Shown piece after piece: positions 3,250-55,301 of a DNA stretch of 64,000 bases. Every line of letters starts with the position of its first letter. The first letter of the stretch is position 1. The position numbers and the translations under genes are program-made. The notes under the pieces were generated by a model. That model did not search any database and was not told the DNA's origin. It worked only from the letters and a program-made list of their open reading frames with translations. The DNA is from Anaerolineae bacterium (lineage in GTDB: Bacteria > Chloroflexota > Anaerolineae > Aggregatilineales > Aggregatilineaceae), in the NCBI GenBank assembly GCA_018432315.1, contig JAHDLB010000021.1, positions 1-64,000 of the forward strand. Reading direction: 5' to 3'.

Positions 3250-4566
3250 GCCGCACGCCGCCAGGGGATCGACCGGGATGTCCGGCGGCGCGTCCACGTA
3301 GCCGCGCGCGGCCAGCTCGTTCGCCAGCGCCGTGCCGAACAGGCAGGTCCCGGTCGGGTTGAAGTGCCGGTCGAGCACGTAATAGGCGTGCTGTCCGGTC
3401 TGCTCGTGGAAGTCGATGAACAGATCGGTCGGGTTGATCACGGCGATATCCAGCCGGTCGAGCAGCGCCAGCATGCGCTGCTGCGGGTACCACAGGTCCC
3501 ACTCGCGGCCCGCCTCTTCGAGCGCGGGCTCGTAGCGCCAGTCGTCGTACTGCACGATCATGTGCGGCGGGACGATCGCCACGACGAACTCGGCGCCGTC
3601 CTCGGTCACCGCATCCCGGAAGGCGACCAGCAGCGCCTCGGTGAGCCGCCATGCCGCCTGCCACGCGTCGTCCGGCTCGGTGAAGAACACTTCCAGCGGC
3701 GTGGACAGCACGTCGGCGGCGGGCAGGCGCGGCCCGCGCGCGCCGTCCTCCGAGTCGCCATCGTCATCGCCGCCCGTCAGCGCATCGCGGACCCGCCGGG
3801 GCGCGTCGCGCAGCACGCGGTACGTGATCGAATGGGCGTTCAGCCAGCCGATGACGTTTTCGGGAAAGGGCTGGACGAGGTACGGGCGCGTCTTGTCCAC
3901 GTAATCCCAGGGATGTTCGACCAGCGCGCCGGATTCGTCCAGCGTGAAAAAGGGGCGTGTCTGGGCGAGCAGCTCCGGCGGCTCCCACTGGGCGATAGCG
4001 TTGTCGCCGATGTCGTTCTCGACGAACATCACCAGCAGCACGATATCCGCGTCCAGCGTGCTGCCGTACGCCTCGTAGAGCAGGTATTCGCGGTCGGTGC
4101 CGAAGCCGGGCGAGCCGAGGTTGACCACGTCGACGCGCCGGTCGCCCGCGCTCAGCCGGTCGGCCAGCCACGCCGTCCACCCCTCGTCGAGCGGTACTTC
4201 CCACCCCGCCGTATACGAATCGCCTATCGCGACGATCCGCGTGGCGCCGTCGGGCGGCGCCGGTTCGATGTCGGGGCCGCGCAGGCCGAGCGCGTTCAAC
4301 CGCACATCGACCTCGAATTCGGTGTTGCCCCGCACGAATCCCCTGGTCGTGAACCGGTCGTAGGGGGGCAGCATGACGCCGACCCGGCGGCTGATCGCCT
4401 GGTAGTCGGCGTTACCAGGGCGCGGGATCAGGTGAAACGTGCGCGCCAGCGCGTCGACCACCAGGGCGCTGATCAACAGCCCGAAAGCGATCATCACCAG
4501 CTTGTGACGCCAGCGAAGCCGGACGGGGGCGCGAGGCTCCGGGTTGGGTGAATGTGTCAAGGCCAC
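3241..4566 (-). CDS. SGNH/GDSL-type hydrolase, membrane anchored
   Basis: A 441-residue protein with one N-terminal membrane segment (about 21-41) and an extracytoplasmic SGNH hydrolase domain. Block I is I-G-D-S-Y-T-A-G-W with Ser117; block II glycine is in N-L-G-S-P-G-F-G; block III is E-N-D-I-G-D; the catalytic D-x-x-H is in L-D-R-H-F-N-P at about 393-396. SGNH proteins of this layout deacylate or acylate surface glycans and lipids; the substrate cannot be read from sequence. The frame opens with GTG and only a weak AGGT upstream, so a start slightly downstream is possible. It converges with the ferredoxin-like gene. Confidence 0.85.
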   Translation of the reverse strand: MALTHSPNPEPRAPVRLRWRHKLVMIAFGLLISALVVDALARTFHLIPRPGNADYQAISRRVGVMLPPYDRFTTRGFVRGNTEFEVDVRLNALGLRGPDIEPAPPDGATRIVAIGDSYTAGWEVPLDEGWTAWLADRLSAGDRRVDVVNLGSPGFGTDREYLLYEAYGSTLDADIVLLVMFVENDIGDNAIAQWEPPELLAQTRPFFTLDESGALVEHPWDYVDKTRPYLVQPFPENVIGWLNAHSITYRVLRDAPRRVRDALTGGDDDGDSEDGARGPRLPAADVLSTPLEVFFTEPDDAWQAAWRLTEALLVAFRDAVTEDGAEFVVAIVPPHMIVQYDDWRYEPALEEAGREWDLWYPQQRMLALLDRLDIAVINPTDLFIDFHEQTGQHAYYVLDRHFNPTGTCLFGTALANELAARGYVDAPPDIPVDPLAACGSG

Positions 4567-4660
4567 ACCTGCGCGATCAGAATGCCCGCCCAGTATAACG
4601 TGCTCGTCACGGTTACCAACAGGATGGCGCTGGGCGGGGGAAGGTCCCCAACGCAGCGTG

Positions 4661-4682
4661 GCCCGCCGATTTCTCGGCGGGC
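4661..4682. terminator. perfect 9-bp hairpin downstream of the FKBP gene
   Basis: GCCCGCCGA at 4661-4669 pairs perfectly with TCGGCGGGC at 4674-4682 around a TTTC loop. It lies 56 bases beyond the stop of the minus-strand FKBP gene, in the direction of its transcription, and before the divergent SGNH start. Neither side has a T run, so it is a hairpin that may slow or protect transcripts rather than a canonical intrinsic terminator. Confidence 0.4.
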
Positions 4683-4738
4683 AGTTGCTGTCATGATGGT
4701 GTCATGGCGCGCGGCTTCAGCCCGGCGCGCAGGCCGGA

Positions 4739-5167
4739 TCAGCCAATCTCGACGAGCTGGATCTCGAACGTCAGATCCTGACCGGCCAGCGGGTGGTTGG
4801 CATCGAGCTTGACCGCCGCCTCACCCACCTCGGCCACGGTGACCAGCGCCACGTCGCCGTTCGTCTGCCGGACCTGAAGCTGCTGGCCGACCTCGGGCGT
4901 GATGTCGGGCGGAAACTGGTCGCGCCCCACGGCGAGGATCAGGTCGTCCCGGCGCGGGCCGTACGCCTGGTCCGCCGCGATGGTGACCGTCTTGCTCTCA
5001 CCGGCGGTCATGCCGATCACGGCATTCTCGAAGCCGGGGATCACCTGGCCTTCGCCCAGCGTGAACTGCAGCGGTTCGCGCTCGACCGACGAATCGAAGA
5101 CGGTCCCATCGTTGAGCCTGCCGGTGTAGTGGACCTTGACGGTGTCATTGGTTTGTGCTTGAGCCAT
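4739..5167 (-). CDS. SlyD-like FKBP peptidyl-prolyl cis-trans isomerase
   Basis: A 142-residue protein with the FKBP core split by an insert-in-flap, as in SlyD. It opens with [16 protein letters not shown] (13-28), then [10 protein letters not shown] near 40-50. It closes with the SlyD signature [13 protein letters not shown]. It speeds proline isomerisation and acts as a folding helper in the cytoplasm. The His-rich nickel-binding tail of E. coli SlyD is absent, so a nickel role is not supported. The ATG at 5167 is preceded by AAAAGGA; longer upstream frames lack a site and encode non-family sequence. Confidence 0.92.
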
Positions 5168-5323
5168 GATTTTTCCTTTTCGTACTCCGCTCGTGCAATT
5201 GCCCCTCCTCGTCCCGGTCGCCCGGCAGAATCGAAAACCGATACGCGGAGGCGCATCTACCATACACTGCCATCTGACTGAACGGGAAAACATCGAGAGG
5301 GGACTTGACTAGAGTCTCGCAGG

Positions 5324-5381
5324 AACGGCGCCGTTTGCCCAATCCGGCGCGCTGGTCTATCCCCGCCAATCGACTTATAAT
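5324..5381 (+). promoter_or_regulatory. intergenic region with palindrome and -10 box for the sensor kinase gene
   Basis: TATAAT at 5376-5381 lies 34 bases before the kinase ATG; the -35 side has no good match to TTGACA. A 12-base perfect palindrome, AACGGCGCCGTT, sits at 5324-5335 between the divergent FKBP and kinase genes and could be an operator. The -10 box is clear; the operator role is a guess. Confidence 0.4.
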
Positions 5382-5414
5382 GACCGCTGGATTGTCGCGT
5401 CGCTGTAGAACGCC

Positions 5415-7772
5415 ATGAACGAAGCTATGAGTGAAGCCGCCACCCAACCGACTCCCTCCCCCGGCCATCGCAAGCCGACCAGCCTGCGAGCGCGTTGGCG
5501 GTTCTCGTTCTTCCTCGGGTTGAACCTGTTGGTCCTGTTCGTGGCGGGGATCGCAAGTTTGATCATCGCCCTGGAACGGCGTCACGCGCTGCTCCAGCTT
5601 CACGAGGCGGCGGTCGAGCAGGTGGCGCTCGACACCCGGATCGCGCTCGACGATGTGGAGCGGCTGCTGGCGTATGCCGGGGACACGCTCGCGCCGGAGA
5701 GCGCAGCGGGCCCGGACCTCGCCCGGCTGGAGGCGGCGCATCCGGCGCTGTGCTCGGTGCGGATCGTGGACGTGGACAGCACCGCCGCGCTCGATAGGGT
5801 CCGCGCAGCGCCCTGTACGGGGGCGGCGGGCGCAGGGCTGGCTTCCGGCATGCTGAGGGTGCAGGTTCCCATCCGCGGCGAGGGGATGATCGTCGCGGAA
5901 CTGGACCCGGCCCAACTGTGGAGCGGCGTCGTGGGCGGGGCGCTGGGCGATCACGGGTACGCGGCCCTGCTGGACGAGTCGGGGGCGGTGCTCGCCGCGC
6001 CGCCGGACCTGTCGCTCGCGCCGGAGCGCGATCCGGCTGAATTCGACTCGGTGCGGCACGCGCTGGACGGCGATCCCGCGCTGCAAGTCTATCGCGGCCT
6101 GGAAGGCGAATGGGTCGTCGGGCGTGCCGAGCGCCTGCCGGAGACGGGACTGCTCGTCCTGACCGAGACGCCGCTGACAGCCGTGTTTCCGACCCTGGCG
6201 CGCGGAGCGGCGCTGTGGGGGCTGGCCTTCCTGCTGACCGCGCTGGCGGGCGAGACGCTGATTCACCGCATCATGCGGACCGTGATGGCGCCCTTCGGCA
6301 TCCTGCACCAGGGTGCGCGCGCCGTCAGCCAGGGCGACTACCACTACCGCATCCGGCTGCCAGCCGGCGCCGAGCGCGAAATCGTGGAGCTGGGCGCAGC
6401 CTTCAACGCCATGATCGCGCAGTTGCAGGCGAGCCGGCGCCAGATCGACGCGTACACCCACGAGATGGAGGACATCGTCGAGCTGCGCGCCCGCGAGCTG
6501 TCGCGCAAGGCGATGCAGCTCGAAGTCGCCGCCGACGTGTCGAGCAAGATCGCCACCATTCTCGATCCGACGGGCCTGATCGACGAAGTGACCGGCCTGA
6601 TCAAGGACCGCTTCGAGGTGTACCACGTCGAGATCCTGTTGTTGGACGGCGCGGGCAAAACGCTCCAGCCGGTCCGGCAGCGCGAGCCGGACGCGACCGC
6701 GCCGATCAGCCTGCGCGACGCCGATCACAGCGTGCTGGCCTGGGTGGCGCGCTACGGCGAAACGGTCTACGTGCCGGACGTGTCCGAGGACGAGCGCTAC
6801 CGGAGCCACCCCACGCTGCCCGCCAGCCGGTGCGAGCTGGCGATCCCGCTCGTGTTCGCCGGGCAGACGATCGGCGTGCTGAACCTGGAAGACGACCACC
6901 AGGACGCGTTCCCCCGCGACGAGATTGCCGTGCTGGAGAGTCTCGCCAACGAGATCGCCGTCTCGATCCACAACGCGCGCCTGTTCGACGCGCTGGAAAC
7001 GGCCAACCGCGAGCTGGCCCAGGCGACCATGGAGGCCAACCAGGCGCACATGCTCAAGTCGCGGTTTCTGCTCAATGCCTCGCACAAGCTGCGCACGCCG
7101 CTCAACGCGATCATCGGCTATTCGGAGACGATTCTGAGCGGCGTCTACGGGGCGATCCCCGACAAGGCGCTCGACCGCCAGCGGCGCATCCTCGAAAACG
7201 GGCGGATGCTCCAGGCGCTGATCGAAGACATGCTCGACCTGTCCTCGATCGAAACCGGCTACATGGAGCTGAATCTCGCCTGGGTGACGCTGCCGCCGCT
7301 GCTCGAAGAGGTGATGAACGCCGCCCACGCCCTGCACCAGACCGCCTACGGCGATCACGACCTGGCGCTGAAGATGACCATCGAGGGCGACCTGCCGCCG
7401 GTGTGGGCCGACGTCGACCGGCTGCGCTACGTCCTGATCACGCTGATGGACAACGCCGTCAAGTTCACGATGGCGGGCGAAGTGGCGATGACCGCCTGGG
7501 CCGAGGGCGACATGGTGTTCGTGGAAGTGCGCGACACGGGGCCGGGCATCCGCGAGGACGAGTTAGTCTACCTGTTCGAGCCGTTCCAGCACCAGCGCGG
7601 CAGCACGGCTTCCGGCGGCAAAGGGACCGGGCTGGGGCTGCCGGTGTCGCGCCTGCTGGCCCTGCGTCACGGCGGCGACCTGACCGCGCGCAGCACGCTG
7701 CACCAGGGCAGCACCTTCACGCTGCGGCTGCCGTCCCGGCCCGACGGCGCGCCCCCGCCCCCGGAGCGTTAG
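5415..7772 (+). CDS. membrane sensor histidine kinase with HAMP and GAF domains (altered H-box)
   Basis: The 785-residue protein reads, in order: membrane segment (about 30-50), extracytoplasmic sensor region (about 55-245), second membrane segment (about 258-280), HAMP (about 282-335), coiled coil, GAF domain (about 365-515), HisKA and HATPase_c. The phospho-acceptor is His557 in N-A-S-H-K-L-R-T-P-L-N. The residue after it is Lys558, where this family normally has Glu or Asp that acts as the general base. The ATPase domain looks intact (D-N-A-V-K-F-T, D-T-G-P-G-I, G-T-G-L-G-L-P). No response regulator is adjacent; the nearest is at 44271. Its stop codon overlaps the converging YfhO-like gene by three bases. 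ATG at 5427 is an alternative start. Confidence 0.93.
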   Translation: MNEAMSEAATQPTPSPGHRKPTSLRARWRFSFFLGLNLLVLFVAGIASLIIALERRHALLQLHEAAVEQVALDTRIALDDVERLLAYAGDTLAPESAAGPDLARLEAAHPALCSVRIVDVDSTAALDRVRAAPCTGAAGAGLASGMLRVQVPIRGEGMIVAELDPAQLWSGVVGGALGDHGYAALLDESGAVLAAPPDLSLAPERDPAEFDSVRHALDGDPALQVYRGLEGEWVVGRAERLPETGLLVLTETPLTAVFPTLARGAALWGLAFLLTALAGETLIHRIMRTVMAPFGILHQGARAVSQGDYHYRIRLPAGAEREIVELGAAFNAMIAQLQASRRQIDAYTHEMEDIVELRARELSRKAMQLEVAADVSSKIATILDPTGLIDEVTGLIKDRFEVYHVEILLLDGAGKTLQPVRQREPDATAPISLRDADHSVLAWVARYGETVYVPDVSEDERYRSHPTLPASRCELAIPLVFAGQTIGVLNLEDDHQDAFPRDEIAVLESLANEIAVSIHNARLFDALETANRELAQATMEANQAHMLKSRFLLNASHKLRTPLNAIIGYSETILSGVYGAIPDKALDRQRRILENGRMLQALIEDMLDLSSIETGYMELNLAWVTLPPLLEEVMNAAHALHQTAYGDHDLALKMTIEGDLPPVWADVDRLRYVLITLMDNAVKFTMAGEVAMTAWAEGDMVFVEVRDTGPGIREDELVYLFEPFQHQRGSTASGGKGTGLGLPVSRLLALRHGGDLTARSTLHQGSTFTLRLPSRPDGAPPPPER

Positions 7773-10024
7773 CGCCGCGCCCGGCGCCAGCCCACTCCCA
7801 CCGCGATCAGCCACGCCAGCCACCCGGCAGCGGTCAATACCACGCCCACGACCAGCGAGAGCGGGCGATAGGCGAACCGGACGGTATGCTCGCCGGGCGG
7901 CACGCACACCCCGCGAAAGGCTGTGTCGGTGCGGACGATCTCGGCGTCGTCGCCGTCCACCGTCGCCCGCCAGCCGGGATAGAACTGGTCGCTGAGCACC
8001 AGCAGCCCGCCCCCGCCGCTGACCTCGACCGTCACGTCGTTGGGCCGGTATTCGGTGATGGCCGCCTCGCCGCCCTCGCCCGCCGGGCAGTCGACCGCCT
8101 CATCCACGAAGACCGTCGCGCGCAGGTTGGTCTCCGGCGCGGCGATCTGCTCGCGCACCGCCCCGTCATCCGGCTCGACGATCACCTCGCTGGCGACCCA
8201 CGCGCGCGGGAAGGGATCGACTCGCTCGTAGTAGGTGTTGTCGTAGGCGATGCCGATCAGCTCGAAGGCCGGGTCGTCGTAGGGCTCGCCGGAGAGGACG
8301 TACTTCACCCCGAGCAGCGTGTTGACCCGCGCGGTCGGATCGTTCGCGTCGGTCGTGTCCTGCAGCCGGTCGAACGTCTCGATCGGCAGCGGGTCGTAGC
8401 CCAGGACGTGCAGATGCCCGGTGACGCTGGCCCCGTTGATCGGGCCGGGCCACGGCTCGCGCATCAGCACGCGGGCATCCGGCCCGGTGGGGATGTTGGC
8501 CCGCGCTCCGGTCCAGACCGGCGCTTCGGTCACCTCGTCCACGGTGATGATCGGGATGGCGGCGTGCCACGCGTCGAGCACGATCAGGGCCGCCGTCAGG
8601 CCCAGCGCCCAGCCGGTCGCGCGGGGATCGGGCCGGGTCCACAGCCACAGGACCACCCAGGCAGCGCACGCGATCAGCCCGGCTTTCGCCAGCGCCCCGG
8701 CGACCAGCGTCGCCCGCAGCGGCATCGGCTCGACGTGGCTGGCGCTGGCGTACCAGCCGGTGAAGACGATCGCCAGCCCGAAGGCCAGCGCCGCCCCGGC
8801 GGGCAGCCACACGCGCAGCGCGGGGGCCAGCGCGGCGCGCCGTTCTTCGAGCGAGCGGGTTTGCAGCGCCGTGACCAGCAGCGCCGCCAGCCCGGCCAGC
8901 CCGATCACGACCAGCAGCAGCGCCCGCGCCGGGACGCGGAAGAAGCCGAAGCCGGGCACCCACCGCACCAGCAGTGGCAGCAGCGCGCCCTCCAGGCCGA
9001 GGCTCATCGCCAGCCCGAACGCGATCAGCGCCAGGAAGAACCACGCCTCGCGCCGGGGCCAGCGGAAGGCCAGCGGCACCGCCAGCAGCGGCAGCAGCCC
9101 GGCGTAGGCGGTGAACTCCTCGACGAAATCGGCGCCCCAGTAGTAATACGGCTCGACGGTGGGATTGCCGAACAGGTCCGGCACGGCCAGCGCCGACAGC
9201 ACCTGGGCCGGGGGCAGCGCGTAGCGGCTGGCAAACGACAGGCTGGTCGGCTCGCGGATCGCCAGCCGGGTCAGCTCCGCCGAGGGCAGCACCAGCGCCG
9301 CCGCCAGGATCGCGCCGCCGAGCACGATCGCGCCCAGCCGCAGCCCGGCGAACGTCCCGCCCCGGACCGGGTCCGCGCTCCCGGCGACGTGGTACGCCCC
9401 CACGAAGGCCAGCCCCAGGACGAGGTACACCATCAGCGGCGTGAACCCGGCCAGCAGCGCCAGCCCGAACACGGCTATGCCCGGCAGGACGGCGAACCAC
9501 GTCTCGCGCGCCAATGCGTGGCGGTAGGCGGCCAGCCCCCACGGCACCCAGCCGAAGACCATCACGTGATTGAAGTGGCCGGAGAAAAACTGCGCCGCCG
9601 CCCAGCCGCTGGTGGCGTAGACGACGCCGCCCAACAGGCTCCCGGTCCGGCTGGCCCCGAAGCTCCGCGCCAGCCGGGACATGCCCCACGCGCCCAGCCA
9701 GACGTGCAGGGCCATCATCAGGCCGATGCCGCGCTGCTCGCCGATCAGCCACACGGCCCACATGCCCGGATAGAAGAAGCCAGCGTGCGGGTTGCCGATC
9801 AGCGGCAGGCCGATGAACTGGTGCGGAATCCACAGCGGCAGCTCGCCGTCCTGCAGCGTCTGGCGGATGTAGCCTTGCAGCAGGTAGAACATCTGCGGCA
9901 GGTCCTTGCCGTTGAGGAATTGATCGTCGCCGGGCGGGATGATCACCGGCCTGAGCACGATCACGGTCAGAACGGCCAGGATCAGCGGGACCAGCCAGGG
10001 GCGTCGTTCGAGAGCGTTTTCCAT
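7769..10024 (-). CDS. YfhO-like polytopic membrane protein (GT-C type)
   Basis: A 751-residue protein with a first membrane segment at about 10-28, the loop P-P-G-D-D-Q-F-L-N-G-K-D-L-P-Q after it, about ten further membrane segments to residue 510, and an extracytoplasmic C-terminal region ending in another membrane segment (near 720-745). The loop and the final G-W-R-A-T-V-D-G plus G-E-H-T-V-R-F pattern are typical of YfhO-family proteins, which in Firmicutes take part in glycosylating wall or lipid polymers. The ATG at 10024 is preceded by AAAGG; the start lies 19 bases after the stop of the upstream GT-C gene, so the two are probably co-transcribed and may act on the same lipid-linked sugar. 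Confidence 0.85.
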   Translation of the reverse strand: MENALERRPWLVPLILAVLTVIVLRPVIIPPGDDQFLNGKDLPQMFYLLQGYIRQTLQDGELPLWIPHQFIGLPLIGNPHAGFFYPGMWAVWLIGEQRGIGLMMALHVWLGAWGMSRLARSFGASRTGSLLGGVVYATSGWAAAQFFSGHFNHVMVFGWVPWGLAAYRHALARETWFAVLPGIAVFGLALLAGFTPLMVYLVLGLAFVGAYHVAGSADPVRGGTFAGLRLGAIVLGGAILAAALVLPSAELTRLAIREPTSLSFASRYALPPAQVLSALAVPDLFGNPTVEPYYYWGADFVEEFTAYAGLLPLLAVPLAFRWPRREAWFFLALIAFGLAMSLGLEGALLPLLVRWVPGFGFFRVPARALLLVVIGLAGLAALLVTALQTRSLEERRAALAPALRVWLPAGAALAFGLAIVFTGWYASASHVEPMPLRATLVAGALAKAGLIACAAWVVLWLWTRPDPRATGWALGLTAALIVLDAWHAAIPIITVDEVTEAPVWTGARANIPTGPDARVLMREPWPGPINGASVTGHLHVLGYDPLPIETFDRLQDTTDANDPTARVNTLLGVKYVLSGEPYDDPAFELIGIAYDNTYYERVDPFPRAWVASEVIVEPDDGAVREQIAAPETNLRATVFVDEAVDCPAGEGGEAAITEYRPNDVTVEVSGGGGLLVLSDQFYPGWRATVDGDDAEIVRTDTAFRGVCVPPGEHTVRFAYRPLSLVVGVVLTAAGWLAWLIAVGVGWRRARR

Positions 10025-10043
10025 GCGGCTATGCCTTTCGCGC

Positions 10044-11972
10044 TCAGCGCGCGCGGACCGTGACCTGCCCCACCACTGCCGCGTCGTCGCCGTCCACGCG
10101 CAGCGGCTCCAGGTCGCCATACCAATAGGCGTTCACCATCACCCGGTACGCGCCGGGCGCCAGCTCGCCGGGCAGCGCCAGCGTGTGGCGGTCGAACACG
10201 AATTCGCCCACCGCCCAGGCCGTGGTCGGCGCGTTGCCGGGCGGCCCGTTGTGCTCGGCTACGACGCGCCCCCCGGCGTCCAGCAGGAAGACGCCCACCG
10301 AATAATCGAGCGTGGGCGGGGCCAGCGCCGCCCACCACAGATCGACGTGCAGGCGCTCCCCGGCCCGGATCGACTCCGGCAGCAGAACATTGCCCAGGGC
10401 CAGCACGTCGCCGAAGTTCAGCGGATCGCCCGCCAGATCGGGCCGCTCGAACAGCGCGGCGTGGATCGTCGGGTCCTGCGGGTAAGCGACGGCGTACTGC
10501 GCGCCGGTGGGCGTGGCCTGGGCCAGGGCGAGCCGGTAGCCGTCGTCGCCCGTTTCCAGCCAGGGGATCACCTGCGAGGGCTGGAGCCACTGCACCACCC
10601 ACACGCGGCGGTGAGCGCGCACAGCGTCTTCCACCTGGGGCACGACCGGCACCGCCCGCCCCGGATCGCCGGTCCAGGGCAGCGTGCGGATCGTCTGCAC
10701 GCCGTCCGGCAGGGCCAGCGACAGCTCGTACTGGAACGCGTTATCGTCCCAGCCCGTTTCGAGGATCACCAGGTCGCCAGGCGACGCCTGGGCCGCCAGC
10801 GCCTGCGCGGCAGCGTCGTAGTCCATGCGCGGCTGGATCACCGGGTCGCTCGCCAGGGCGAGGATCGCCAGCAGCCCCGCGAACAGGGCGCGCGCGCCGG
10901 GCCGGATCAGCCACAGCCCCCAGCCGCAGACCAGCGCCAGCGCCGGGGTCAGGTAGGCGAGCGTGCGCGCCGCCACCAGCCCGATCCACAGGTTGGCGAC
11001 CAGCATGAAGGCGAACAGCCCGCCGCTCGCCAGCACGAGGTACAGCCCGGCGAGCCTGGACCGCTCCGGGATGGGGCGCGCGCCGCCACGCGCGAGGGTC
11101 CAGCCGGACAGCCCCCACGCGCCCAGCAGGAACAGCCCGCCGGTCAGGGCGAGCTGGCTCCCCAGCACCAGCTCGATCACCGGGCGCAGCGTGTCGAGCG
11201 TCGTCTCGTAACTGCCGGGGAAGTCGCTGATCCCCTGGCTAACGCTGTTGTAGCCGCGGTCGTACTGGCGCAGCAGCACGACCAGCCACGGGACGAACAG
11301 GATCGCGGACGCGATCCAGGCCGCTGCCAGCCGCAGCTTCGCACGCCAGGGCGCGCGCCACGCCAGCCAGATGATCCCCTGGACCACCAGGGCCAGCAGG
11401 CCCAGATAGACGGTGTAGAGCATGAAGGTGATGCTGAGGACGTACCCCGCCAGCAGCAGCGGGCGCGGGCGGCGCAGGCAGCGCAGAAAGAAGAAGGACA
11501 TCAGGCCCACGGCCAGCACCAGCCAGCCGTAATCGCGGATCTCCTGCCCGTAATAGACCGCCATCTCCAGCACGGCGAACACCAGCGCCGCGTAACGCGC
11601 CGCGCCATGTCCCAGCCAGTCCGCACCGGTCCGGTAGACGACCGCCGTCGCCAGCAGGCCCGCCGCAATCGCCCACCAGCGCAGCGCGATCCGCGAGTCC
11701 CCGGCCACCTGGCGCCACGTCGCCACCGTGAAGACGTACAGCGGGGGGTGGCGGTCCCACGTTTCGATCCGGTCGAAGACCTCGCCCAGGTCCGGATCGC
11801 CCGTCGCCCAGGCGACGAAGCCTTCGTCGGTCCAGACAGGGCGCCCCGCCGCCCCGTGAATGCGCGCCGCCGCGGCCAGCAGCAGGATCAACACGACCGG
11901 CCAGAGCGGCCAGCGGCGCGCCCGGCGCGGGGCCAGCGCGGCTGGCTCGATCGGCGGGGAGGTAGCGGTCAT
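10044..11972 (-). CDS. GT-C glycosyltransferase, family 39-like, with C-terminal beta domain
   Basis: A 642-residue integral membrane protein with about 11 membrane segments (25 to about 385). The first outside loop has the GT-C acidic motif W-T-D-E-G-F, followed by D-R-H-P-P-L-Y, both typical of PMT/ArnT-like transferases that use polyprenyl-phosphate sugars as donors. After residue 400 comes an extracytoplasmic region with a beta-sandwich look (G-E-R-L-H-V-D-L-W-W, L-A-P-G-A-Y-R-V). The acceptor cannot be inferred. It sits between prs (72 bases upstream) and the YfhO-like gene. The ribosome binding site is poor. Confidence 0.83.
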   Translation of the reverse strand: MTATSPPIEPAALAPRRARRWPLWPVVLILLLAAAARIHGAAGRPVWTDEGFVAWATGDPDLGEVFDRIETWDRHPPLYVFTVATWRQVAGDSRIALRWWAIAAGLLATAVVYRTGADWLGHGAARYAALVFAVLEMAVYYGQEIRDYGWLVLAVGLMSFFFLRCLRRPRPLLLAGYVLSITFMLYTVYLGLLALVVQGIIWLAWRAPWRAKLRLAAAWIASAILFVPWLVVLLRQYDRGYNSVSQGISDFPGSYETTLDTLRPVIELVLGSQLALTGGLFLLGAWGLSGWTLARGGARPIPERSRLAGLYLVLASGGLFAFMLVANLWIGLVAARTLAYLTPALALVCGWGLWLIRPGARALFAGLLAILALASDPVIQPRMDYDAAAQALAAQASPGDLVILETGWDDNAFQYELSLALPDGVQTIRTLPWTGDPGRAVPVVPQVEDAVRAHRRVWVVQWLQPSQVIPWLETGDDGYRLALAQATPTGAQYAVAYPQDPTIHAALFERPDLAGDPLNFGDVLALGNVLLPESIRAGERLHVDLWWAALAPPTLDYSVGVFLLDAGGRVVAEHNGPPGNAPTTAWAVGEFVFDRHTLALPGELAPGAYRVMVNAYWYGDLEPLRVDGDDAAVVGQVTVRAR

Positions 11973-49872: not shown

Positions 49873-49933
49873 GCGCTGCATCTCCGTGGTAAACTACACC
49901 CACCGGACCGGCAGACATCAAAGGCACCAACGC

Positions 49934-50968
49934 ATGACACACAAGATCGACTGGGAATCGCTGGCCGAGCTTCAATTCCTGCTCTACAGCCGCATCGCCG
50001 ACTCGCTCAACGCCGCGCTCAGCGGCATCGCCCTCAGCGACATGCCCGAAGCCCAGGACAAGCCGCCCGGCTACTGGCAGGAACGCGCCACCGCCAAAGT
50101 GTCGAACGTTCTGAACCTGTTCACGGCCTGGTCGAACCTCATCCGCTTCAAGCTGGATGGGACCATCCCCGAGCGCGCGCTGCGCCCCTTCCCGGCCAAC
50201 GCGCTGCTGGCGTGGCTGGGGTCGCAGCTCCAGCTTTCGCCCGTTCCGCGCCTGGCGGATGACCCGACGCTGGTCGCCAACCAGGAAACCCTGCAAGAGG
50301 CGCTGCTGCTGCTCTATTCGGCGGCCTTCACCCAGGGCAGCGGGGTCCGGCTGGAAGTGGGGCCCGCCAGCGAAGGACTCTGGTTTCGCGTCCGGTTCGC
50401 GCGCAACACGCCCATTCCCCCCACCTTCGACGCGCTGCTGGCGAGTTTTGGCGATCACTGGCGAGACCAGGACACCCTCTTCGAGCTGGCGACCGCGCGC
50501 GATTTCGTGGCGTTGAATGGGCTGGAACTGGTCCTCAACACGTCGGGCGAGCAGTGCGAGTTCGCATTTTTCGCGCCCTCGACCGCCGACGCGCGCGCCC
50601 GCCTGGTCGCCGATGCCCATCCGGGCGGTGACGCCTCCGCCGCGCCCCACGTCATGCGGAACGACGCGACGCCGGTCATCTTCGAGAAGATCGCCGCCCG
50701 GAGCGATGCCACGCCCGCGCTGCCCGATCCGCCGCCGGACGCGCCCGCCGATGAGAACGCGCCCGAGCCGTTCCCCGATCCGCCGGTGATCCCCTCACCG
50801 GTGGCGCCGCCGGACGCGCCCGCCGAACCCGACACGACAGGCCCAACGGCGATCACCTTGCAGGACGACGATACTCACCCGGGCACGCAGACGCTCGTCA
50901 TCCGGCGCCCGCCACGCGATCAGGCAGACGAAGCGCCGCCCGGCGCCGACGCGAAAACGGCGGGCTAG
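49934..50968 (+). CDS. degenerate histidine-kinase-like protein
   Basis: 344 residues. An N-terminal helical region (about 10-75) resembles a dimerisation helix pair without an obvious phospho-acceptor His. Residues about 105-215 resemble a HATPase_c fold: N-Q-E-T-L-Q-E-A-L-L-L-L-Y at the place of the N-box, and A-R-D-F-V-A-L-N-G-L-E-L-V-L-N-T-S-G near the place of G2. The glycine-rich ATP lid itself is missing. The last 120 residues are Pro/Asp/Ala-rich and disordered, with T-L-Q-D-D-D-T. AAAGG precedes the ATG at 49934. It may bind partners, not phosphorylate. It heads the FHA-protease cluster. Confidence 0.65.
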   Translation: MTHKIDWESLAELQFLLYSRIADSLNAALSGIALSDMPEAQDKPPGYWQERATAKVSNVLNLFTAWSNLIRFKLDGTIPERALRPFPANALLAWLGSQLQLSPVPRLADDPTLVANQETLQEALLLLYSAAFTQGSGVRLEVGPASEGLWFRVRFARNTPIPPTFDALLASFGDHWRDQDTLFELATARDFVALNGLELVLNTSGEQCEFAFFAPSTADARARLVADAHPGGDASAAPHVMRNDATPVIFEKIAARSDATPALPDPPPDAPADENAPEPFPDPPVIPSPVAPPDAPAEPDTTGPTAITLQDDDTHPGTQTLVIRRPPRDQADEAPPGADAKTAG

Positions 50969-51054: not shown

Positions 51055-51267
51055 ATGAAATGCGTGCATTGCAGCGAACAGGCAGAGGCGATCTGCCGCT
51101 GGTGTGGCCGCGCCGTGTGCGGCAACCACATCAAATCGATGACGTACATCATCTCGGTGTACGTCGGCGGCAAGAAAGTCCCCAAGTCGCTGGTGGTGGC
51201 CGACGCCGTGTGGTGCGGCGTGTGCAAACCGCAGCCCGAACCGATCGAGATGCCCTACCTGGATTGA
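51055..51267 (+). CDS. small B-box-like zinc finger protein
   Basis: 70 residues. M-K-C-V-H-C-S-E-Q-A at the start, then C-R-W-C-G-R-A-V-C-G-N-H and C-G-V-C near the end give a cross-braced set of Cys and His able to bind two zinc ions, as in B-box or DUF2180-type fingers. GGGGAGGA precedes the ATG. It ends six bases before the double-FHA gene, so it belongs to that operon and may help assemble the complex. Confidence 0.75.
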   Translation: MKCVHCSEQAEAICRWCGRAVCGNHIKSMTYIISVYVGGKKVPKSLVVADAVWCGVCKPQPEPIEMPYLD

Positions 51268-51273
51268 TGTCCC

Positions 51274-51975
51274 ATGAGTGAGCAGCAAGCCGAAGGTCTG
51301 GCGAAGATCTGCTGGACCGATCCGCAGTCCGGCGATTACCGCGAGCTGGTGCTCGCCGAGGGCGCGACGATCACCATCGGGCGCGGCCCCGACAACCAGA
51401 TCGCGATCCCCGAGCGCCACGTCTCGCGCCAGCACGCCGTGGTCAGCTATCGCGACGGCATCTTCATGATCTCCGACCTGGGCAGCGCCAACGGCACCTT
51501 CGTCAACGACAAACGGCTGACCGACCCGTTCCCGCTGGCTCACGGCGACGTGATCCGCCTGTACGTGCCGGTCCTCACCTTCTCCGCGCTGGTCACCGAA
51601 GCCGAGCGCGAGCAGGCCAAAATGACCGGGACGCTGGTCGTCCCGGCGGGCGCCGGAGGCCAGCCCACGCTGCACATTACGTCCGGGCCGCAGGAAGGCG
51701 CCGAGATCCGGCTGTTGACGCCCACGCTCAAGATCGGGCGCGCGACGCGCAACGCGACGTGGGACGTCTCGCTCCAGGATCGCGCCGTCTCGCGGCCTCA
51801 CGCCCAGATCGACCTGCAGCCCGGCGGCGAGTGGGCGATCACCGATCTCGGCAGCGCGAACGGCACCACCGTCAACGGGGTTCCGGTGTCGGCCAACGAG
51901 CCGCACCCGCTGGCCGATGGCACGGTGATCACGCTGGGCGAGACAACGCTGCTGTTCCGGCTGGGCAGCCCGTGA
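51274..51975 (+). CDS. protein with two FHA phosphothreonine-binding domains
   Basis: 233 residues. FHA 1 (about 23-100) has I-G-R-G-P-D-N, H-V-S-R-Q-H-A and L-G-S-A-N-G-T-F-V-N. FHA 2 (about 140-230) has I-G-R-A-T-R-N, A-V-S-R-P-H-A and L-G-S-A-N-G-T-T-V-N. All core binding residues (G-R, S-x-x-H, N-G) are kept in both. The linker carries M-T-G-T-L-V-V (T118, T120), itself like an FHA ligand. FHA domains read phosphothreonine. The gene is six bases from both neighbours, tightly linked to the protease gene that follows. Confidence 0.9.
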   Translation: MSEQQAEGLAKICWTDPQSGDYRELVLAEGATITIGRGPDNQIAIPERHVSRQHAVVSYRDGIFMISDLGSANGTFVNDKRLTDPFPLAHGDVIRLYVPVLTFSALVTEAEREQAKMTGTLVVPAGAGGQPTLHITSGPQEGAEIRLLTPTLKIGRATRNATWDVSLQDRAVSRPHAQIDLQPGGEWAITDLGSANGTTVNGVPVSANEPHPLADGTVITLGETTLLFRLGSP

Positions 51976-51981
51976 TGGCCT

Positions 51982-53685
51982 ATGGCGAACGTGTACCGCA
52001 ACATCGGCGCAGTCGTTAAAGACACCGGCGGGCTGTGGGATCGCCTGGACGGCCAGATGGCGGCGCGTCCCGCCCCGGCGGCGGGCGGCGGCCTGGGCCT
52101 GTGGGACCTGGTTGTGACGGGCAGCGCGGGCGGGGTGTGGGACGAATTCGACCGCGAGACCGTCCTGCTGCGCCGCGAGCACTTGGAGCGCGACCGGGAC
52201 CGGCGCGACCTGTGGCGCGAGGTCGCCGACGAGACGCTGATCCTGCCGCGCGCGGGCCTGCTGCCGGTGTGGGACGCGGTCCTGGCCCGGTCCGACGCGG
52301 AAGGCGGGCTGGACCTCGACGGCACGCTGGTGATGCTGCACCCGGAGGACGAGAGCGTGTGGCAGCGCTCCGCCGATGAGACGCTGATGCTCAGCCGCCC
52401 TGCCGAGAGCATCTTCGCCCAGCAGGTCCGCGCCCGCGACCTGACGACGTATTTCCCCCGGCGCAAACCGGGCTACGCGCTCAAGAAGCTGGCCGACGCG
52501 CGCGGCGAAACCTACTGGATTCTCAAGAACCTCCGCACCGACGCCTACCTGCGCCTGACCGCCGAACAGGTCTTTTTGTGGGACCAGATGGACGGCGAAG
52601 CCAGCGTGCAGGATATCGCCGTGGCCTTCATGCTCGAATACGGCAAGCTCTCCATCGGCGGGCTGATCGTGCTGCTCGACCAGCTCCAGCAGAAGGGCTT
52701 CATCGAGCCGCTGGTCGACATCTACGGCGCGGTGAACCAGAGCGTGGCCCAGCGCCGCGCGGACGTGTGGTGGCGGCAGATCATCCGGCGGTTCACCAAC
52801 ACCGAACTGGCGATTCACGGCATCGATGGCTGGATCACGCGGTCGTACCGGGCGGGCGGCAGGTGGCTGTTCGCCGTGCCGGTCCAGTGGGCGATGCTGG
52901 CGATCATGATCGCCGGGGCGGTGACCTTCGTTGGCCTGCTGCTGGGGCTCATCGAGCGCGACCTGTCGTTCATCGCCGGGGCGGGCATCGGCGCGGTCGC
53001 CGGGCTGGCCTCGCTGTACGTGCTGCAAGCGATCACCCTGTTCATCCACGAGTGGGCGCACGCGCTGGCGACCAAGCACTACGGGCGCGAGGTGCGGCGC
53101 GGCGGCTTCGTGCTGCATTTCGGCATGCCCGCCGCGTTCGTCGACACGACCGATATCTGGATGGAGCCGCGCCGCCCGCGCATCGTGGTGAGCTGGGCCG
53201 GGCCGCACTCGGGCTTTTTCCTGGGCGGGCTGGCGAGCCTCGCCATCCTGGCGCTGCCCGCCGGCCCTGTGGCGAGCGTGCTCTACCGTTTCGCCATCCT
53301 GACGTACCTGACCAGCTTCATGAACCTCAACCCGCTGCTCAAGCTGGACGGGTACTATATCCTGATGGATTGGCTCGAAATCCCCCGCCTGCGCGAGCGC
53401 AGCCTCGCGTTCATCGGCAGGCCGCTGCGCGACAAGCTCCGCCGGCGCGAGCGCTTCACCCGCGAGGAGCTGATCTTCGCCGTCTTCGGCGTGCTGGCCG
53501 CCCTGTGGACGGTGATCGCCGTGTCCGCCACCGTCCGGATCGCCGGAAAATACGTGCTCGACGCCGCGCAGACGCTCCCCGGCCAGATCGCGATCGGGCT
53601 GCTGCTGGCGGCGGTGGCGATCGTCCTGGGCCGCCGCACGCTCCGCCAGGCGCGGGCCGCGCGCCGCCGGAGGGCCGCTGCCTGA
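51982..53685 (+). CDS. membrane M50-type metalloprotease with PqqD-like region and E-T-L motif repeats
   Basis: 567 residues. The N-terminal 140 residues contain Trp at 19, 41, 53, 78, 97 and 127 and Thr at 60, 85, 115 and 134. In three copies the pattern is W-x6-T, with E-T-[LV]-x-L around the Thr. A PqqD-like winged region follows (about 150-245; L-R-L-T-A-E-Q-V-F-L-W-D-Q-M-D-G). Membrane segments come next (from about 290). The M50 zinc site is H-E-W-A-H (His356, Glu357, His360), with Asp456 in K-L-D-G as the likely third ligand. Related proteases mature or export peptides. The start is 6 bases after the FHA stop, and the stop overlaps the next ATG. Confidence 0.85.
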   Translation: MANVYRNIGAVVKDTGGLWDRLDGQMAARPAPAAGGGLGLWDLVVTGSAGGVWDEFDRETVLLRREHLERDRDRRDLWREVADETLILPRAGLLPVWDAVLARSDAEGGLDLDGTLVMLHPEDESVWQRSADETLMLSRPAESIFAQQVRARDLTTYFPRRKPGYALKKLADARGETYWILKNLRTDAYLRLTAEQVFLWDQMDGEASVQDIAVAFMLEYGKLSIGGLIVLLDQLQQKGFIEPLVDIYGAVNQSVAQRRADVWWRQIIRRFTNTELAIHGIDGWITRSYRAGGRWLFAVPVQWAMLAIMIAGAVTFVGLLLGLIERDLSFIAGAGIGAVAGLASLYVLQAITLFIHEWAHALATKHYGREVRRGGFVLHFGMPAAFVDTTDIWMEPRRPRIVVSWAGPHSGFFLGGLASLAILALPAGPVASVLYRFAILTYLTSFMNLNPLLKLDGYYILMDWLEIPRLRERSLAFIGRPLRDKLRRRERFTREELIFAVFGVLAALWTVIAVSATVRIAGKYVLDAAQTLPGQIAIGLLLAAVAIVLGRRTLRQARAARRRRAAA

Positions 53686-55301
53686 TGGCTCGGCGGGGTC
53701 TGCGGGCGCGGGTGGGGCTGCTGGTCGCGGCGGTTGCGCTGGCGGCTGCCGGGTGCGGCCAGGGGGACGATCTGCCGGTCCCGACGCTGATGGTCCTGCC
53801 GGAGCTGACGCCGCTGCCGACCTTCACGCCCAGCGTCACGCCCACGTCCAGCCCGACGCCGCCGCCCACCGCGACGGCCACGCCGACCGCAACCGCCAGC
53901 CCGCTCCCGCCCACGGCCACGCCCACCGACACCGCCACCCCGGCGCCGACGTTCACGCCGACCCCGGTGCAGGTCGTGATCGGCAGCGAGGTGGGCGCCT
54001 ACGCCCGCACCGGGCCGGGCACGGCGTATGGCGTCGCCGGGACGGTCGGCGCCGGGCAGCGTTTCGCCGCGCTGGCCTACGCGACCGACGACGAGGGCAC
54101 GGTCTGGTACCTGGTGGCGCTGGCGCCGGGCCGGACGGCCTGGGTGTCCGCCTGGGTGGCCGACCGCCCGGACGGCGTGCCGCTGGCGGCGGTGGCCCTG
54201 GCGGCGACCGTTCCCCCCAGCCCCGCCGCGTCGCCCCTGCCCACGCTCACGCCGACCGCCGCGCTGCCCGGCAGCGCCGACGCGCAAACCTCGGACGAGT
54301 TCGGCGTGAATCTGCGCAACGGCGCGGGCCTCGATTACGAGCTGCTGGACACGCTGCCGCCCAATACACCGCTGGAGCTCGTCGGTCGCACCGCCGACCT
54401 GAGCTGGCTCCAGGTGATGACGCTCGACGGGCGCCCCGGCTGGATCATGGGCGACCTGCTGCGCGTGCAGCATCCGGAGGTGGAGAACCTGCCGGTGAGC
54501 TGGGCCGAGCCGGACGGCGAGACGCCGCCCCCCGCCGCGGGCGACCCGGCCCGGATCGTCCTGTCGGCGGACGTATTGCAGGAGGCGCGCCGCATCTACG
54601 CCCACGGACAGCAGTTGGGCAACGATCCGCGCTCGCTGCTGCTGATCGGCGACAGCGTCAACGTCGAGGGGCGCTTCCTCGATTCGTTCGCCGAGGGCAA
54701 TTACGAGCTGGGCGAGTTTGCCTACCTGCAGCCGGTCATCGACTTTTTCAGCGGGGCCGGGTCGCTCAGCGCGGCCTACCTGACCGAGCATTCCGGCTTC
54801 AAGTACGACATGATCCTCGACCCCACGTGGTCGAACCCGGCGCTGTGCGCGCCCGGCGAATCGCCCCTCGACTGCGAGTACCGGATGAAGCGGCCCAGCA
54901 TCGCGATCATCCACCTGGCGTTGAACGATATGCTGTTCTACTCGCTGGACGACTACCGGACCTACATGCACCGGGTGATCCCCACGCTGATCGGCTACGG
55001 CGTGATCCCGGTCCTGACCACGTTCACCGCGGCGGACGACTTCCGGCCCGAGCAAACGCCGCTCTACAACCAGGCGATCCGCGAGGCTGCCGCCGCCTAC
55101 AACGTCCCGCTGATCGACTTTTTCGCCGCGGCGCGGGCGCTGCCCAACCGGGGGACCGGCGAGGACGGCGCGCACCTCTCGCACCCGGAAGACTGGCGGA
55201 TCGCGTTCGACGGCGACCAGTTCATCTACGGCGTGACGCTGCGCGAGCTGCTCACCTGGCAGATGCTCGACGAACTGAAGCGCAACGTCCTCGACCTGTA
55301 A
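53685..55301 (+). CDS. lipoprotein with two SH3b domains and a C-terminal SGNH hydrolase-like domain
   Basis: 538 residues. The lipoprotein signal ends A-A-A-G-C with the acylated Cys24. A Thr/Pro stalk (about 40-95) leads to SH3b 1 (about 98-160), a second linker, SH3b 2 (about 205-270; V-N-L-R-N-G-A-G) and an SGNH-like domain (about 300-538). The nucleophile is Ser324 in L-I-G-D-S-V, followed by H-L-A-L-N-D-M (Asn) and D-G-A-H-L-S-H (Asp/His). It would sit on the outer face of the membrane and act on a surface ester. The ATG at 53685 overlaps the protease stop, with GGAGGG ten bases upstream. Confidence 0.83.
   Translation: MARRGLRARVGLLVAAVALAAAGCGQGDDLPVPTLMVLPELTPLPTFTPSVTPTSSPTPPPTATATPTATASPLPPTATPTDTATPAPTFTPTPVQVVIGSEVGAYARTGPGTAYGVAGTVGAGQRFAALAYATDDEGTVWYLVALAPGRTAWVSAWVADRPDGVPLAAVALAATVPPSPAASPLPTLTPTAALPGSADAQTSDEFGVNLRNGAGLDYELLDTLPPNTPLELVGRTADLSWLQVMTLDGRPGWIMGDLLRVQHPEVENLPVSWAEPDGETPPPAAGDPARIVLSADVLQEARRIYAHGQQLGNDPRSLLLIGDSVNVEGRFLDSFAEGNYELGEFAYLQPVIDFFSGAGSLSAAYLTEHSGFKYDMILDPTWSNPALCAPGESPLDCEYRMKRPSIAIIHLALNDMLFYSLDDYRTYMHRVIPTLIGYGVIPVLTTFTAADDFRPEQTPLYNQAIREAAAAYNVPLIDFFAAARALPNRGTGEDGAHLSHPEDWRIAFDGDQFIYGVTLRELLTWQMLDELKRNVLDL

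Follow-up and report, generated by a model that had tools for sequence, protein, structure and literature searches.

A candidate multisite phosphothreonine docking tail on a PqqD–M50 membrane protease encoded beside a tandem-FHA protein in an Anaerolineae bacterium

Control of bacterial site-2 proteases is mostly described as acting via a prior cut or via PDZ domains. FHA pockets often prefer a hydrophobic residue at position +3, and the FHA proteins GarA and OdhI are soluble metabolic regulators with a single FHA domain, for which we know of no protease partner. In the type VI secretion system of Agrobacterium tumefaciens, phosphorylated Thr14 in the cytoplasmic N-terminus of TssL is bound by Fha (PMC3953482). 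In Mycobacterium tuberculosis, tandem FHA domains of Rv1747 flank a phosphorylatable linker (PMC9312465), and FHA I docks the pT-R-V-V motif of Rv2623 (PMC5549992); we know of no Rv1747 partner with a three-motif array. In the open-access literature searched, no paper joining FHA or cyclic-nucleotide-binding (cNMP) domains with site-2 or intramembrane proteases was found.

In the window, a 64,000-nucleotide stretch of DNA from an Anaerolineae bacterium of the phylum Chloroflexota, three + strand genes with 6 bases between neighbours encode a zinc-finger-like protein, a tandem-FHA protein (FHA2) and a PqqD–M50 membrane protease with a repeat-bearing N-terminal tail:

51055..51267, + strand: zinc-finger-like protein of 70 aa (MKCVHC..CRWCGRAVCGNH..CGVCKPQPEPIEMPYLD), first gene of the operon
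51274..51975, + strand: FHA2, two FHA domains (Pfam FHA, two stretches, E 1e-43)
51625..51645, + strand: FHA2 linker motif T118-G-T120-L-V-V-P between the FHA domains, candidate intramolecular pThr site
51982..53685, + strand: PqqD–M50 membrane protease of 567 aa with the N-terminal repeat tail (Pfam Peptidase_M50 and PqqD)
52036..52116, + strand: W19 and W41 units without E-T, both W residues nearly invariant
52138..52170, + strand: motif 1, W53-DEFDR-E-T60-V-L-L63, T60 in 15/15
52213..52245, + strand: motif 2, W78-REVAD-E-T85-L-I-L88, T85 in 14/15
52270..52335, + strand: W97..T115 variant (D-G-T-L-V-M), W97 invariant, T115 partly conserved
52360..52392, + strand: motif 3, W127-QRSAD-E-T134-L-M-L137, with W127, E133 and T134 invariant in 16 rows
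52519..52704, + strand: PqqD-like domain, residues 180-241, weak Pfam PqqD match
53047..53061, + strand: HEWAH, zinc-binding motif of the M50 active site, H356, E357 and H360 invariant
53329..53352, + strand: NPLLKLDG, second M50 active-site motif, N450, P451, D456 and G457 invariant

The arrangement resembles TssL–Fha in pairing a membrane protein, through its cytoplasmic N-terminus, with an FHA partner from the same system, the binding being predicted here; TssL, however, is a secretion component with one site (Thr 14) and PpkA as its kinase, whereas here a repeat lies on a protease. With Rv1747, the locus shares two FHA domains around a linker, a membrane protein under control and, in the partner, a docking motif of the form pT-x-x-hydrophobic, again as a prediction for the present proteins; unlike FHA2, Rv1747 carries its FHA domains within the transporter chain itself, and no protease is involved. 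By analogy, these two systems make a docking tail on the protease plausible.

An earlier note on this DNA had observed that W53..T60 (52138-52161), W78..T85 (52213-52236) and W127..T134 (52360-52383) share one spacing and an E-T-[LV]-x-L core. This was confirmed, the common core being W-x5-E-T-[LV]-x-L, and the longer-spaced W97..T115 variant that it listed is also present. The range 52036-52395 corresponds to W19 to S138 of the protease, in which W19 and W41 are extra W units without E-T. When residues 1-160 were shuffled 200,000 times, W-x5-E-T-[LIVM] appeared in one copy 1,057 times, in two copies twice and in three copies never. At the DNA level, the 5.7-Mb genome has 59 matches to TGG-N15-GARAC-NNT, and 3 of these fall inside 250 bases at the tail. 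The repeat was rejected as a genome-wide motif, as a repeat-profile search of the bacterium's own genome yielded no second convincing carrier (next best E 0.84). Kinases were likewise discarded as carriers: among 11 checked, there was one loose match, at most 60 residues from the catalytic loop. In an AlphaFold2 model, whose overall confidence is low (mean pLDDT 62, pTM 0.39), pLDDT stays below 50 for residues 1-143 and the W residues sit in short helices; the tail is predicted to be disordered.

Orthologues occur in most genomes of the family and in one genome from another family in the order, and distant relatives were added by a scan of named genomes, among which the relatives are Anaerolineae, Aggregatilineales and similar groups. 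The comparison comprises about fifty relatives. In a 13-row alignment, W53, E59, T60, W78, D83, E84, T85, W127, E133 and T134 are invariant and the linkers are variable. In a set of 15 proteins including the distant L093, L094 and L110 (42-46% identity), T60 and T134 are retained in all 15 and T85 in 14, in line with the conservation of Thr and spacing in homologues that the earlier note had made the first check of its docking idea. L093 lacks T85, but its following W unit carries a motif, keeping the number of motifs at three; this comparison indicates that individual motifs can shift position without a change in their count. Among these 15 proteins, every one of the 45 motifs has Glu at -1 and Leu, Ile, Met or Val at +3. 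For the W97..T115 variant, W97 proved invariant, but T115 is only partly conserved, being Thr in 11 of the 15 proteins, Ser in one and lost in the three distant members. Conserved Thr residues with a suitable +3 residue in a segment predicted to be disordered are as expected of a pThr–FHA docking pair. The W residues and the Glu at -1 are conserved more strictly than FHA binding alone would require, and this counts against docking.

Three motifs are present in all 16 tail-readable proteases that have an FHA2 gene directly upstream, down to 42-46% identity, and the reverse also holds; a further clade member, L030, is cut by a contig end and stands outside the 16. In a scripted count over the loci compared, the 32 readable homologues that have no FHA gene nearby lack the E-T motif altogether; they are not 32 independent observations because they include closely related genomes (Chloroflexus) and short contigs. 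These 32 are drawn from 36 homologues outside the clade, with L151 and L158 (FHA in the chain), L034 (N-terminus cut) and L112 (alignable in the M50 core only) set aside. Loss of the Thr residues in homologues, or absence of the repeats beside an FHA gene, which the earlier note had named as evidence against docking, was found in neither form. In the phylogenetic tree, the proteases with an FHA neighbour form one clade (support 100/99), indicating that the pairing of FHA2 with the E-T motifs goes back to a single event and was maintained; many independent gains of the pairing are rejected by this tree. Homologues without FHA also contain W units that lack E-T, a hint that the W unit came before the E-T pair.

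Conservation of W as strict as that of Thr, together with E-T-less W units both inside and outside the clade, would also fit binding of W-x5-E-T repeats to another partner (for instance a substrate, some adaptor or the zinc-finger protein) in a phosphate-free manner, with W as the main contact, as would the position of the zinc-finger gene beside the protease gene in many homologues. We consider this unlikely: a strict Thr, Glu only at -1 and a hydrophobic +3 residue are more in keeping with a phosphosite than with hydrophobic contact alone, and the zinc-finger gene also lies beside motif-less proteases, so that its product does not account for E-T.

The zinc-finger-like gene (51055-51267) was absent from the earlier description of the locus and is tightly spaced upstream of FHA2. 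It adjoins the protease gene in every clade member with a contig long enough and in many homologues outside the clade. Its product has weak Pfam matches only and a strongly conserved C-terminus (KPQPEPIEMPYLD). The two genes adjoin across the phylum, and the small protein might serve the protease as a substrate or adaptor. A role solely as protease partner was rejected: among 154 genomes of the order, the zinc-finger gene is found in 41 and the protease in 17, and elsewhere the gene adjoins ParA-like ATPases, a cNMP protein and cyclase–AAA proteins. At one such locus (L187, 1632-10307), the neighbours of zinc-finger relatives encode a ParA-like ATPase, a protein that binds cNMP and a cyclase–AAA protein of 1037 aa, and the small protein therefore seems part of a wider cyclic-nucleotide signalling context.

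As the earlier note had stated, FHA2 contains two intact FHA domains. The Pfam match (E 1e-43) is accompanied by the pocket residues G-R, S, H and N in both domains (R37/S51/H54/N73 and R156/S173/H176/N196), which are conserved in nearly all orthologues, distant members included, with the exception of one H to Q change in FHA-1 of L022. By fold and pocket residues, FHA2 fits a phosphothreonine-binding FHA protein. The nearest solved relatives are FhaA for the first domain and GarA and OdhI for the second. G001 (98% complete) and G014 (96% complete) have FHA2 and lack the protease and zinc-finger genes; FHA2 still adjoins the same downstream inositol-phosphatase-like gene in both. FHA2 must therefore have another role too. 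At the loci L035 and L036, in two genomes of one genus, FHA2 is found without the protease and zinc-finger genes, and the place between FHA2 and the phosphatase-like gene is taken by a beta-propeller-like gene.

The T-L-V-V motif that had been noticed in the FHA2 linker is indeed there, at T120. Its surroundings, GTL[IV], are invariant in 15 orthologues, including the two protease-less genomes, and the distant members have STLVVP (L094 and L110) or ETILAMP (L093). This invariance raises another reading, in which T118/T120 is the main phosphosite and FHA2 closes on itself like GarA and OdhI, its solved relatives, the protease repeats being a structural or membrane-surface element; the tandem FHA domains of Rv1747, which surround a disordered linker and are reported to condense when phosphorylated (PMC9312465), would offer a parallel. 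That reading leaves the three conserved E-T motifs unexplained and appears very improbable as the main account, but self-docking of the linker may hold alongside a docking tail.

A Ser/Thr kinase elsewhere in the genome, which phosphorylation of the tail would call for, was sought, and 21 kinase domains score above the Pfam cut-off. The operon itself contains no kinase gene; the only kinase gene adjoining it in the genomes compared is in G005, where it is divergent (L021, 8556-11216).

From this evidence, the repeat region is probably a disordered multisite pThr docking tail, by which the tandem-FHA protein would be recruited where relatives have a cNMP sensor built in. The N-terminal tail of the protease would serve as a flexible multisite platform, on which a cytoplasmic Ser/Thr kinase would phosphorylate T60, T85, T134 and perhaps T115; the tandem-FHA protein from the upstream gene would bind the phosphorylated Thr residues, possibly two at once, and a phosphorylation signal would thereby reach the PqqD–M50 membrane protease. 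We infer the phosphorylation, the binding and the effect on proteolysis from the motif, its conservation, gene order, co-occurrence, predicted disorder, the absence of cNMP domains and FHA fusions in relatives (see below); single origin, FHA2 without protease in G001 and G014, and the position of kinase genes outside the operon weigh on the other side.

The enzyme itself fits an M50 (site-2) metalloprotease by its HExxH and NPxxxxDG motifs in hydrophobic helices: HEWAH and NPLLKLDG are invariant in 13- and 18-row alignments, and hydrophobic stretches flank both. The Pfam Peptidase_M50 match has E 3e-6 at 27.1 bits, against a cut-off of 27.2, and the PqqD match has E 0.006, PqqD being clear in the homologues L151 and L158. 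The sole solved relative found by sequence is the archaeal protease MJ0392, a weak match. The M50 core (residues 173-559) can be aligned with those of the metalloproteases that mature daptides and epipeptides (YydH, LiaK), with E 4e-44 for NCBIfam NF041824 (daptide_HExxH). Identity as a daptide or epipeptide protease was rejected because the scores fall below the NCBIfam cut-offs (151 bits vs 300, and 39 bits vs 225 for NF058609, the YydH/LiaK family). The E-T tail lies outside the matched stretch, and a peptide precursor gene was not recognised at the locus.

PqqD-like domains of peptide-modifying enzymes bind leader peptides. Since such a domain directly follows the tail, the repeats might act in cis, with E-T-[LV]-x-L lying as beta strands on the protease's own PqqD-like domain and holding the enzyme inactive while FHA2 acts elsewhere. 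The resemblance of the core to peptide-maturation proteases and the strand-like character of E-T-L-I-L by sequence would agree with this, but the model places no strands in the tail, at low confidence, and the PqqD-like domain is also present in homologues without motifs and FHA, so that the pairing of motifs with FHA2 is left unexplained; such a cis arrangement is judged quite unlikely.

Distribution of cNMP domains bears on the docking tail from another side. At least two of these domains are found in the same chain in 30 of the 36 homologues outside the clade; of the other six, two are truncated at a contig end (L096 and L102) and four lack the domains (L033, L105, L112 and L151). By the same profile, which was built in this analysis and with which Pfam agrees for the five carriers checked, the proteases of the FHA clade contain none. 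The Chloroflexota proteins L099 and L108, for example, have a homologous PqqD–M50 core (~36% identity over the aligned part) with two C-terminal cNMP domains, and unlike the present protease they have neither E-T motifs nor an FHA neighbour. This pattern suggests that the FHA2/tail pair replaced a built-in cNMP sensor and would stand in for it in the FHA clade; replacement of one input by another is the simplest reading of the distribution, and a sequence of events is not implied. The full exchange, from in-chain cNMP domains to a separate tandem-FHA reader with a multisite phosphorylatable tail, such that multivalent pThr binding switches an intramembrane protease, is a serious but still tentative possibility. 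If the tail is a multisite phospho-switch, Ser/Thr kinases, which are numerous in these bacteria, would be linked to an intramembrane protease, and the family would offer a case in which cNMP input was swapped for pThr–FHA input on the same enzyme.

In L151 and L158, FHA domains are fused ahead of the PqqD–M50 core. The two proteins occupy separate places in the tree on long branches, their exact positions being unsure, and the fusions provide separate support for FHA signals reaching this protease family. The L158 protein (3595-10410) is 1236 aa long, with three FHA, three cNMP-binding, PqqD-like and M50 domains, and its gene is followed by those of an FHA–ABC ATPase and another FHA protein.

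Two further genes flank the operon. The product of 49931-50968 appears histidine-kinase-like by eye, without a Pfam match, and has a Pro-rich tail ending in T-Q-T-L-V-I-R-R, which resembles the docking motifs; it was dropped as a system component, having no match in the neighbourhoods of relatives. On the 3' side of the protease gene, 53682-55301 encodes SH3 and GDSL-type domains after a Thr/Pro-rich stretch and has matches in the neighbourhoods of just two relatives (L022 and L025).
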